NCBI GenBank assembly: GCA_015207585.1
Contig: JADEWQ010000026.1
Span: 1-57,642 of the forward strand
Length of the DNA stretch: 57,642 nucleotides
Origin: Pleurocapsales cyanobacterium LEGE 06147
GTDB taxonomy: Bacteria; Cyanobacteriota; Cyanobacteriia; Cyanobacteriales; Xenococcaceae
Direction of reading: 5' to 3'
A program made the position numbers and the translations under genes. How positions within the stretch are numbered: position 1 is the first letter of the stretch; every line of letters begins with the position of its first letter. The notes below the pieces were generated by a model. The model did not search any database. It worked only from the letters and a program-made list of their open reading frames with translations, and was not told the origin of the DNA. Positions 3,168-47,418 of this stretch are shown here, in pieces.

Positions 3168-3830
3168 TTACTTTAGGAGTTCTGGCTTAACTTTTTCAAT
3201 AAAAGAAATTAGCATAACTGTAAAAATCCCTTCTAGCACCGCTTGAATTCCATACCCTATTAAAGATAAATAAATAGCATTTCTTTCTGTTTGTGCGTCT
3301 ATATCGGGGGATAGATTAGTAATAATAACAACGGTAAAGATAATAGCAGACAAACCCAAAGCACCAGCACCAGCACCAAAAGCCAAAATTTTAGTCCATC
3401 TTTTTTGCTGTTGAGTGGAAAAGCGGTGCGGCAGCACCCGCAAAGCGGGATCGCGCAGTTGAAAAAGATGATAAGCCAATAAAGCTGGTATTCCCATTAC
3501 AACAGCATTAATTCCCAAAGTAGATAAACCTCCGTGCTGGAACAGTGCTGCTTGGAAAAATAAACCGATCGCAATTGCCGGAAAAGCATAATAACCCAAG
3601 ATCGCTCCCATGATGCCATTCAAAACCAAATGAATACTGGTTGGGGGAATGGGTATGTGAATTAAAGAAGCGACAAAAAAAGCTGCGGTTAATAAAGATG
3701 CTTTGGGAATCTTTTCTTGAGGATTGCGCTCGCGGCTAATTTGACGCAGAGAATACCAAGTTACGCCCCCAGTAATGGCATAACCGGCAATAGAGACAGA
3801 TGGAGGAACAAAACCGTCGGGAATATGCAT
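3168..3830 (-). CDS. cbiM: ECF cobalt/nickel transporter substrate-binding subunit CbiM
   Basis: 220 residues. The N-terminal MHIPDGF is the diagnostic CbiM/NikM motif: the free N-terminus and His2 coordinate Co(II) or Ni(II), which fixes the start codon. A second conserved segment, HIPIPPTSIHLVLNGIMG (about 58-75), carries further ligands. Seven or so membrane segments follow. No separate cbiN is present; the accessory role is probably filled by the NikL-like gene just upstream (69-bp gap). A 28-nt hairpin-forming repeat lies in frame at 3427-3454 and encodes part of a hydrophilic loop (DPALRVLPHR); a second copy lies at 47280-47307. Nickel or cobalt cannot be decided, though a NikL-like partner favours nickel. 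Confidence 0.93.
   Translation of the reverse strand: MHIPDGFVPPSVSIAGYAITGGVTWYSLRQISRERNPQEKIPKASLLTAAFFVASLIHIPIPPTSIHLVLNGIMGAILGYYAFPAIAIGLFFQAALFQHGGLSTLGINAVVMGIPALLAYHLFQLRDPALRVLPHRFSTQQQKRWTKILAFGAGAGALGLSAIIFTVVIITNLSPDIDAQTERNAIYLSLIGYGIQAVLEGIFTVMLISFIEKVKPELLK
3427..3454. repeat. Hairpin repeat copy inside cbiM
   Basis: A 28-nt sequence beginning TGCGGCAGCAC, then CCGC-AAA-GCGGG and ending ATCGC. The copy at 47280-47307 matches at 22 of 28 positions. The 5-bp stem differs at one pair that changed on both sides (C:G here, T:A there), and the loop is AAA here, TTT there. It sits in frame within cbiM. Confidence 0.7.
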
Positions 3831-20639: not shown

Positions 20640-20950
20640 TGGCGATCTCGCTCAAGCGCGAGGAGTTCGCTCCTTGTAGTCGAGATCGGGCGTATGGGGA
20701 CAAGGACTCGCAGAGCGGCAAAGCTAGCGTGCGTCAAAGATTGACGAAGTCCAAACAGGCAAGGGGCGCGGAGCGACCCCCGCTCCGTCGTCTTACGAGG
20801 GGCTGTCTCTTGAATTCAGTTCAAGAGTGCGGAATGCACCGGGCAGCGGACAGCCGGAACCGAGTTCCGGCTTCCGCCCGGTTTATAAGCCCCGTGGCGG
20901 AGTACCTTCCCGTGGCGGAGTACCTTGGACCTGGCACTGGAGGATGCGAC
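20640..20950. repeat. GC-rich palindromic interspersed element with nested hairpin and tandem duplication
   Basis: Contains CTCTTGAA (20807-20814) with TTCAAGAG (20820-20827). Next is a 54-bp GC-rich block with nested stems (ACCGGGC 20838 with GCCCGGT 20876; AGCCGGAAC 20852 with GTTCCGGCT 20864). It resumes at TTTATAAGCC (20882) and ends in an 18-bp tandem duplication (20891-20908 and 20909-20926, starting CCCGTGGCGG). The flanks match 56080-56132, which lacks the GC-rich block. The open frame across this region is repeat-derived. Confidence 0.7.
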
Positions 20951-21040
20951 AGCACCGCAAAGGTGGGATGGCGCATAAACATAAATAATTTTAGAGACTA
21001 ACATCTTAACATCTAAAACTCAACATCCAAATGGGATAAA

Positions 21041-44764: not shown

Positions 44765-44799
44765 CTAGCAGAACGCGGCGTAATTTTAAGTTAGTAGGG

Positions 44800-44815
44800 A
44801 CGTAGCATGCTACGT
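44800..44815. repeat. 16-bp perfect palindrome after nnr
   Basis: ACGTAGCATGCTACGT. This sequence is often seen as an interspersed cyanobacterial repeat (GGGACGTAGCATGCTACGTCCC), here with a changed right end. Confidence 0.5.
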
Positions 44816-44831
44816 ACGTACACCGAGTCAC

Positions 44832-45714: not shown

Positions 45715-47259
45715 ATGAAGTCAATTATTGGAACGGTATTACGGGAGCGGTATTATATAGCCCAAGAATTGGGTAGAGGAGGCTTCAGTATTACTTATTT
45801 AGCAGAAGATAGAGATTTACCCGGTCATCCTCGCTGTATTGTCAAGCGACTGCAGCCACAACTGGGAACTCATGTGCTGGGACGAAATTCTCGCTCCTGG
45901 CAAAGTGCTCAAAAAAGATTTATCACCGAAGCCGTTACTTTACAAAGATTGGGTAAACATCCACAAATACCTCAGTTATTGGCTTATTTTGAAGAAAATA
46001 AAGAGTTTTATTTGGTTCAAGAATTTATTGATGGAGAAAATTTAGAGCAAGAAGTAAAACAACATCTTTTGAGTGAAACCCAAGCGATCGCTTTGTTGCA
46101 AGAGGTACTCAAAATTTTAGATTTCGTGCATCAACAAAATGTTATTCACCGAGATATCAAACCGTCTAATCTTATTCGCAGAAGCAACGACGGCAAGATA
46201 TTTTTGATTGACTTCGGTGCTGTAAAAGATATTACTTTACCGCCAGAACTACAAAAGTCAGCTAATTCTACCAAAATTATCGGTACGCAAGGCTATATGC
46301 CTCCAGAACAACTCGAAGGTAATCCCAATATTACTAGCGACCTCTATGCTTTGGGTAAAACAGCAATTTATGCTTTGACCGGACAACTACCACCAGACCA
46401 AGGAAATTCGCAAACCATAGAATTAAATAACGATCGGACTTTGCCACAAGAAGAAACGACAATCAATATGCTGACACAAATTAGTCCAAGACTAAGCAAT
46501 ATTTTGAATAAAATGGTATGTTATCGCTATCAAGAACGTTACCAGTCAGCGATTGAGGTCTTGACAGACCTCGAACGAGAACAAAATTTCATTACTCTTC
46601 CTCCCCCTTTTTTGGTTAGTCCTCCTTATGTTCCTAATGAACAGTTTGAGTCAATCTTTCAACGCCCCAAGCAGCCGCGAAAGAAAAGTAAGTTTATTCT
46701 TTGGTTGGTGTTGATTTTGCCTTTTCTTGGTGCCTTACTAACTATAATCATAGGCATTAATAAAAATAGATATCAAGGATTTTTGCCTTATACCAATAAC
46801 AATTATCATATTCAAATTAAATATCCTGAAAATTGGACTGTTCGAGAGTTAGAAGACCCGATTACTGGAGAAGTAGTCGTGTTTAGTTCTCCTAAAGAAA
46901 GTGGCTCGGATATTTTTCAAGAAAAAGTATTTATAACTGTTGAAAAATTGCCTAACGATATAACAAATTTAGATGAATATAGTACGAGAATTATTAGTGG
47001 AACGATCGCCAACAAAGATACAACAATTAGTGTTTACAATCAAAAAGAATCCAGATTATCTCGTCAACCAGCTCGTACATTAGTCTATTCGAGAAGCTCG
47101 GGTAATCTTAATCTCCGGCAAAAGGAGGTATTTACTTTTCATAATGACCAAGCATATATTATTACTTATTCAGCAGAAAGAGCAAAATATTCTAAGTTTT
47201 TGAATGAAGTTAAGAAAATGATCGAATCATTTAGAATCGATACTCCTCCTCAATCTTAA
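45715..47259 (+). CDS. Serine/threonine protein kinase with C-terminal extracytoplasmic domain
   Basis: 514 residues. A Hanks-type kinase at about 12-285: GRGGFSITYLAED (Gly loop), Lys44 in CIVKRLQ, VIHRDIKPSNLI (catalytic loop), IDFGAVKD (DFG), and GTQGYMPPEQ (activation segment). One membrane helix at about 330-350 follows a basic patch (RPKQPRKKSK). The external part (about 358-510) has YHIQIKYPENWTVRELEDPI and resembles PsbP/DcrB-type folds. Typical of cyanobacterial SpkB/SpkD-like families. Ligand and targets unknown. Confidence 0.9.
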   Translation: MKSIIGTVLRERYYIAQELGRGGFSITYLAEDRDLPGHPRCIVKRLQPQLGTHVLGRNSRSWQSAQKRFITEAVTLQRLGKHPQIPQLLAYFEENKEFYLVQEFIDGENLEQEVKQHLLSETQAIALLQEVLKILDFVHQQNVIHRDIKPSNLIRRSNDGKIFLIDFGAVKDITLPPELQKSANSTKIIGTQGYMPPEQLEGNPNITSDLYALGKTAIYALTGQLPPDQGNSQTIELNNDRTLPQEETTINMLTQISPRLSNILNKMVCYRYQERYQSAIEVLTDLEREQNFITLPPPFLVSPPYVPNEQFESIFQRPKQPRKKSKFILWLVLILPFLGALLTIIIGINKNRYQGFLPYTNNNYHIQIKYPENWTVRELEDPITGEVVVFSSPKESGSDIFQEKVFITVEKLPNDITNLDEYSTRIISGTIANKDTTISVYNQKESRLSRQPARTLVYSRSSGNLNLRQKEVFTFHNDQAYIITYSAERAKYSKFLNEVKKMIESFRIDTPPQS

Positions 47260-47279
47260 ATTTTGTCCAAGCTCAGCGA

Positions 47280-47307
47280 TGCGGCAGCACTCGCTTTGCG
47301 AGACCGC
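47280..47307. repeat. Second copy of the 28-nt hairpin repeat
   Basis: Starts TGCGGCAGCAC, then TCGC-TTT-GCGAG, ending ACCGC. See the copy in cbiM at 3427-3454. The SDR remnant stops matching its family exactly where this repeat begins. Confidence 0.7.
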
Positions 47308-47418
47308 TACTTTAATGCCCGCGTTAAGAAAAAAACGGGCGATCGCTTTACCAATACCTTGACCTCCACCCGTTACTATCGCTACTTTATTGGCAAAACT
47401 AGACAATTGAATCTCCAT
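47308..47418 (-). pseudogene. N-terminal remnant of a short-chain dehydrogenase/reductase
   Basis: From ATG 47418: MEIQLSSFANKVAIVTGGGQ, then GIGKAIARFFLNAGIKVA, the Rossmann motif TGxxxGIG of SDR enzymes. After this the frame runs into a hairpin repeat and ends at 47227 without any further SDR feature, so only about 37 codons of the original gene remain. It begins 10 bp after the coaR stop. Confidence 0.75.

Follow-up and report, generated by a model that had tools for sequence, protein, structure and literature searches.

HIP1 is a palindrome that is abundant in cyanobacteria. SDR5 is said, in work by Elhai from 2008, to belong to a size class of 21 to 27 nt, to show compensatory changes in its stem, and to nest in other repeats. 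According to passages of PMC4390886, SDR5 of Nostoc enters HIP1 at an exact point, separating its third nucleotide from its fourth. REP and REPIN elements with RAYT transposases are short, palindromic, and dispersed, and sometimes lie in ORFs, as outlined in parts of PMC3116915 and PMC3733652, and sections of the latter describe a tag, GTAG or CGTC, at the base of the REP hairpin. The RPE of Rickettsia are palindromic repeats that are kept in frame in protein-coding genes (sections of PMC10969869 and PMC3733652).

The window analyzed here is a stretch of 57,642 nt from Pleurocapsales cyanobacterium LEGE 06147 (contig JADEWQ010000026.1, assembly GCA_015207585.1), and it carries a hairpin repeat, designated element A, which is read as part of CbiM in one copy. 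As far as SDR5 is described in the passages mentioned, element A resembles it in the HIP1 site and in the geometry of insertion. The 24- or 25-nt size, the covariation of the stem (at one pair), and the nesting in repeats also agree with what is reportedly typical of SDR5. The host group is different, and the A family also occurs in Stanieria and in a Xenococcaceae metagenome-assembled genome (MAG). In contrast to REP and REPIN, element A has no GTAG or CGTC tag, has a fixed HIP1 target, and lies mainly inside ORFs. It is like RPE in being a palindromic insertion found in frame in many unrelated genes, whereas RPE, in the sections cited above, are about 150 bp long with a conserved peptide and element A is 24 nt long with a fixed 8-bp target. 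Element A is filed as a new SDR5-like family, with the likeness resting on site and geometry. The kind is thus already known; the family, the host, and the evidence from length and reading frame are added here. Judging from sequence comparison, element A is very probably a very small SDR5-like dispersed element that has multiplied in this lineage through exact integration at HIP1. A mobile DNA of about 24 nt would be one of the smallest yet described. With more than 120 copies mapped, a considerable share of which correspond to unoccupied sites in relatives, the family can be studied in a host other than Nostoc, and the idea that HIP1 acts as a landing site becomes open to test.

Structure and copy number of the repeat

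The initial annotation described a 28-nt repeat at 3427-3454 and 47280-47307 as a small mobile or structure-selected repeat that can enter genes in frame. This reading is supported and withstood both of the tests proposed to refute it, but it missed the HIP1 target and the likeness to SDR5. Both copies are present at these positions, and none of 100 dinucleotide shuffles of the window yielded two matches within 3 mismatches. The 28-nt match is real, but the true repeat is 32 nt long (Table 1), and the bases GCGG/GCGA upstream of the 28-nt start are also conserved in the 95 copies described below. The change of one stem pair from C:G to T:A with pairing retained was described correctly. The other differences had been given as the loop and one flanking base; the loop and the end (ATCGC/ACCGC) do differ, but so does the fourth base of the 32-nt unit (G/A).

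Table 1. Features of the window that carry or adjoin element A
Feature	Position	Strand	Remarks
cbiM, 220 aa	3168..3830	-	Element read antisense as DPALRVLPHR, 8 of these residues extra to relatives
Full 32-nt element in cbiM	3423..3454	+	Borders from 95 copies; empty site in relatives
HIP1 part GCG	3423..3425	+	
24-nt insert	3426..3449	+	
HIP1 part ATCGC	3450..3454	+	
Hairpin CCCGC-AAA-GCGGG	3437..3449	+	3' side of insert; second pair 3438:3448 (C:G) covaries across copies
Degenerate copy-like sequence TGCGACAGCACCGCAAAGGTGGGATGGC	20945..20972	+	
63-aa reading, gene remnant	47227..47418	-	Start matches PF00106; spans second copy
Second 32-nt copy	47276..47307	+	T:A stem pair; ends GCGAT...ACCGC; outside ORFs of at least 150 aa

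The whole genome (6,229,790 bases in 244 contigs) was searched with three patterns, each with its reversed form as the control. One pattern gave 75 exact matches, a second gave 95 matches with at most 1 mismatch, and a strict pattern with free loop length gave 98; each of the reversed controls gave 0. The initial annotation had proposed a search for further copies, and element A is present in at least 122 copies, comprising 95 with a 3-nt loop and 27 with other loops. Alignment of the 95 copies with a 3-nt loop gave the full unit, GCG[RTGCGGCAGCACYCGCnnnGCGRG]ATCGC. Once the inner 24 nt are removed, the outer GCG and ATCGC join to form HIP1, GCGATCGC, and the insert separates its bases 3 and 4 (GCG^ATCGC). 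The borders of the unit are abrupt, with near-random base choice beyond the 32 nt in the 95 copies. A few copies have the ends GCGAT...ACCGC, as would result if the cut lay two bases farther on.

Two lengths of the insert predominate. Among the 98 strict-pattern copies, the loop is 3 nt long in 71 and 4 nt in 24, and loops of 2, 6, and 24 nt occur once each. The 3-nt loop belongs to the 24-nt form and the 4-nt loop to the 25-nt form, so that the insert is 24 or 25 nt long in 95 of the 98 copies and 23, 27, or 45 nt in the remaining three. The copy with the 24-nt loop (L344; contig C30, 17370-17415) lies in an open frame of 282 codons. Its loop, a multiple of three in length, possibly contains a second insert.

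Covariation of the stem

The most variable position of the stem changes in pairs, being C:G in 66 of the 95 copies, T:A in 22, and otherwise composed in 7, and the maximum number of T:A pairs in 2000 shuffles was 12. The other stem pairs hardly vary, and the support from covariation rests on one stem pair because only that pair varies often. At this pair the covariation bears out the notion of a structure-selected repeat. When single copies were folded, competing structures appeared and the drawn hairpin was not the sole minimum. Given that paired changes preserve the stem, copying may proceed via a folded single strand, either of DNA or of RNA.

The loop sequence is free, with AAA in 33 of the 95 copies, TGC in 18, TTT in 17, and ten others. 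Some loops occur in reverse-complement pairs (ATTC/GAAT, AAA/TTT, TGT/ACA, and GAA/TTC), as if the hairpin can flip; TGC (18 copies), TCC (6), and TAC (5) are without a reverse-complement partner among the 95 copies.

The two host loci in the window

The protein that contains the first copy matches the cobalt transporter CbiM (NF004906, 283 bits), in agreement with the initial annotation. In total, 29 loci of relatives were fetched and 19 were aligned, of which 18 cover the site; the distant or fragmentary loci L110 to L119 were excluded. In 17 of the 18, nine columns are missing at the site, eight of which correspond to the 24-nt insert. The CbiM loop, which had been proposed for comparison with relatives, is thus shorter in all but one of them. 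The remaining relative (L099) carries its own, unrelated residues there. In another (L098), the DNA exactly at the insertion point is intact HIP1. On this comparison, CbiM has gained eight residues. Of the solved CbiM relatives 4m5b, 4m58, and 5x3x, two gave matches that end before the insert, and the third match is too weak there to place the insert.

The second copy was said to mark the break of a short-chain dehydrogenase (SDR) gene. The gene is indeed cut short near the repeat: residues 11 to 55 of the 63-aa reading match PF00106 (E 5e-8), the reading stays open through the repeat (residues 38 to 48), and a stop follows 15 codons beyond, where the reading overlaps the end of the ORF at 45715-47259. 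The exact break point is not fixed, because the PF00106 match runs across the repeat, and one truncated SDR gene does not show that the repeat caused the truncation.

Empty sites in relatives

Copies were counted as in-gene when they lay in an ORF of at least 150 aa, which is a rule of length and not of annotation, and ORFs that continued beyond the edge of the stretch were treated as open. By this rule, 63 of the 95 copies are in genes. Twelve were not segmented, namely the CbiM copy and 11 located fewer than 45 residues from where an ORF ends, and 51 segments were made from the others. Of these, 48 were searched against two relatives, G233 and G086, with at most the best 30 loci taken per search, and the last 3 (L086, L087, and L089) were compared only with loci fetched for other segments. 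A usable alignment across the site was obtained for 37 of the 51 segments; 2 of the 14 others never entered the genome search.

The net difference in length is exactly 8 aa in 20 of the 37 aligned copies. It is 9 aa in 4, 0 in 4, and 5 in 3, and 3, 10, 11, 13, 15, and 16 aa occur once each, so that the 17 deviating cases comprise 4 with no gap, 9 with 9 to 16 aa, and 4 with 3 to 5 aa. In the three cases with 13 to 16 aa (L025, L034, and L050), another repeat, B, adjoins element A; others among the deviating cases are poor alignments or paralogues. Some of the best hits may be paralogues, as in kinases, WD repeats, and peptide synthetases. A clear case is L042, in which VIKQDLG-GAAALAER-DRFSVYIP stands against VIKQDLGDRFVVYIP and the DNA of the relative reads GGCGATCGC. 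The 8-aa difference is seen in each of four hosts, hisC, glucokinase, lnt, and D-aminoacyl-tRNA deacylase. L056, a lipoyl/2-oxoacid dehydrogenase acyltransferase, also holds a copy, and its one relative shows no difference in length. Of the 37 best hits, 9 carry an intact HIP1 at the site, compared with 1 of 68 flanking control windows (Fisher p = 3e-4), and the exact sequence is absent there in the other 28; in any hit, among the matches listed, it is found at the site for 12 of the 37. These empty sites back the description of the repeat as small and mobile, with mobility deduced from the comparison of empty and filled sites.

Insert length and reading frame

The copies with a 3-nt loop hardly avoid genes, since the 63 of 95 in ORFs of at least 150 aa compare with 614 of 818 HIP1 sites (p = 0.08) and with 75% of 2000 random positions. 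Of the 63, 36 are in sense and 27 in antisense orientation, and many unrelated genes carry copies in frame. The two insert lengths differ strongly in this respect: 53 of 71 inserts of 24 nt lie in ORFs of at least 150 aa, versus 1 of 24 inserts of 25 nt (p = 6e-10). As a frameshift itself destroys an ORF, this count could be circular, and each element was therefore replaced by HIP1 in silico. The difference persisted, with 52 of 71 versus 3 of 24 in ORFs (p = 3e-7). Two of the 25-nt copies (L227 and L329) joined an ORF only after the replacement, at distances of 17 and 31 codons from the first start of that ORF, and L337, the third, is two codons away from where its ORF ends. The 24- and 25-nt copies thus form a natural experiment, which points to selection on the reading frame after insertion.

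The frame of the HIP1 site is biased as well. Phases 1, 2, and 0 account for 44, 13, and 6 in-gene copies, versus 214, 75, and 325 plain HIP1 sites in 854 kb (p = 4e-10). Phase 1 (xGC GAT CGC) is preferred, and phase 0, the commonest frame of plain HIP1, is rare among the in-gene copies. The preferred frame gives GAAAPAKRDR or DPALRVLPHR, and the avoided frame gives AVRQHPQSGIA or AIPLCGCCRTA; all six readings of the 24-nt form occur open. The length and frame bias uphold the proposal that the repeat can enter genes in frame.

Distribution in other genomes

Of 290 other genomes in the order, 2 gave an exact-pattern match to element A, with one copy each, and diverged copies would escape this pattern. 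Xenococcaceae MAG MO_188.B32 and unicellular cyanobacterium SU2 contain one full 32-nt unit each. A-like matches were absent from 394 kb of the relatives' loci (at most 7 substitutions) and from 300 kb of Nostoc plasmids (at most 9 substitutions), and viral contigs gave 0 matches to one exact pattern.

Possible routes of insertion and copying

Sequence comparison shows that 24 nt are inserted at HIP1 (GCG^ATCGC) in both orientations relative to genes and in coding as well as non-coding DNA. The 24-nt form, which consists of whole codons and is open in all six readings, persists within genes as an 8-residue insert, and the 25-nt form would shift the frame and lies almost exclusively outside genes. 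Selection would remove those insertions that disrupt the frame or yield an unfavorable peptide. The agent of copying may be a transposase acting in trans or the repair of breaks with HIP1 as the template. Profile searches of the genome gave 14 matches to PF01797 (Y1) and 9 to RVT_1, and no gene was tied to element A. Among the RVT_1 (reverse transcriptase) loci, L317 and L319 look by eye like proteins of group II introns.

It is possible, but rather doubtful, that HIP1-templated repair accounts for the spread without a transposase, with a break mended from a copy of the element and GCG and ATCGC acting as short homology. A, B, and E, which differ in sequence, each add 24 nt at HIP1, the occurrence of both orientations is what a palindromic target would give, and no element-specific mover was found among the profile matches. 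However, homologies of 3 and 5 nt are very short, repair of this kind would require neither the hairpin nor its covariation, and plain HIP1, which is by proportion about 50 times commoner than the element (817 sites in 854 kb), would be the likelier donor.

Mobilization of a REP-like element in trans by a Y1 (HUH) transposase is unlikely. A hairpin and a short target are what Y1 enzymes use. Two of the 14 PF01797 matches (C183 and C206) lie about 0.7 kb from a copy of element A, and another (C165) is close to a degenerate match, but about 0.4 of the 14 would be expected by chance within 1 kb of a copy, against which two is a weak signal. Four of the 14 are ORFs of 134 to 138 aa, the size of IS200/IS605 transposases, and several others are truncated. 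Moreover, the consensus of element A contains no GTAG or CGTC tag, and REPs are mostly intergenic in the account given in parts of PMC3733652, whereas about two-thirds of the 95 copies lie in ORFs.

A functional signal kept by selection, such as a terminator, an RNA stabilizer, or a methylation or recombination site, would also retain its stem through paired changes. This explanation is highly improbable, as the copies occupy unrelated genes in both orientations and are nearly confined to this lineage, and a scan of the window against Rfam at gathering thresholds returned no family. A chance product of base composition, which HIP1-rich genomes might favor through their GCG and CGC words, is refuted by the 75 exact matches in 6.2 Mb, compared with 0 for the reversed pattern. 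Precise insertion of an SDR5-like element into HIP1, followed by selection on the reading frame, is the reading adopted here.

Neighboring repeats

Several other repeats of this genome adjoin HIP1. Repeat B, GCGAGAGGTTCGCTCC-N6-TCGCGATCGC, ends in HIP1 and has 28 matches in the genome (L210 to L237), and a B-like copy also occurs at position 20658 of the window. Repeat D, GCGRTCTCGCCnnnGGCGAGGCRCTGCGC, is a hairpin with a 3-nt loop that adjoins HIP1 and has 19 matches (L238 to L256). According to the tags assigned by script, the HIP1 at the end of B is intact in 8 of 28 places and filled by element A in 6, and that at D is intact in 6 of 19 and holds A in 3. On visual inspection, an A with a different loop length occupies 2 further B places and 2 further D places, and a third insert, E, is present at 6 B places. 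The typical form of E is GCG[GTCAGCTTCGCTGCGCCCTTGGCG]ATCGC, with two hairpins and 24 nt within HIP1, and it occurs at seven distinct places (L047, L213, L217, L220, L228, L260, and L328). Within the sequences compared, the added length is 24 nt in all 6 B places with an exact ending and in all 7 E places, in searches whose patterns permitted other lengths; a corresponding pattern for D gave 0 matches.

A tentative extension is that any 24-nt hairpin flanked by the parts of HIP1 might spread in this genome, with HIP1 serving as a general docking site for micro-insertions of codon size. If so, peptides of 8 residues would be added steadily to working proteins, selection on the frame would follow, and A, B, and E would build on each other. 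In 854 kb, GCG and ATCGC are separated by 24 nt in 61 cases, compared with an average of 36.8 over all other spacings between 3 and 60. Element A accounts for 14 of the 61 and E for 2, and the spacing spectrum adds little to the idea of multiple families. Nostoc plasmid sequence gave no clear spacing peak in 100 kb and 300 kb.

Three copies of a 33-nt repeat that ends in HIP1, GCGATGGC...CCGGAGGYGATCGC, occur in 300 kb of Nostoc plasmids (L258, L300, and L301). They have 0, 6, and 7 mismatches, the end of the third is altered, and the insert is 25 nt long, which is not a multiple of three. Each copy lies between genes as judged from incomplete gene tables. In the LEGE 06147 genome, a near-perfect palindrome, about TAGGGACGTAGCATGCTACGTCCCTA, is also repeated, at 44795-44818 of the window and at six further loci (L019, L023, L028, L036, L072, and L074).
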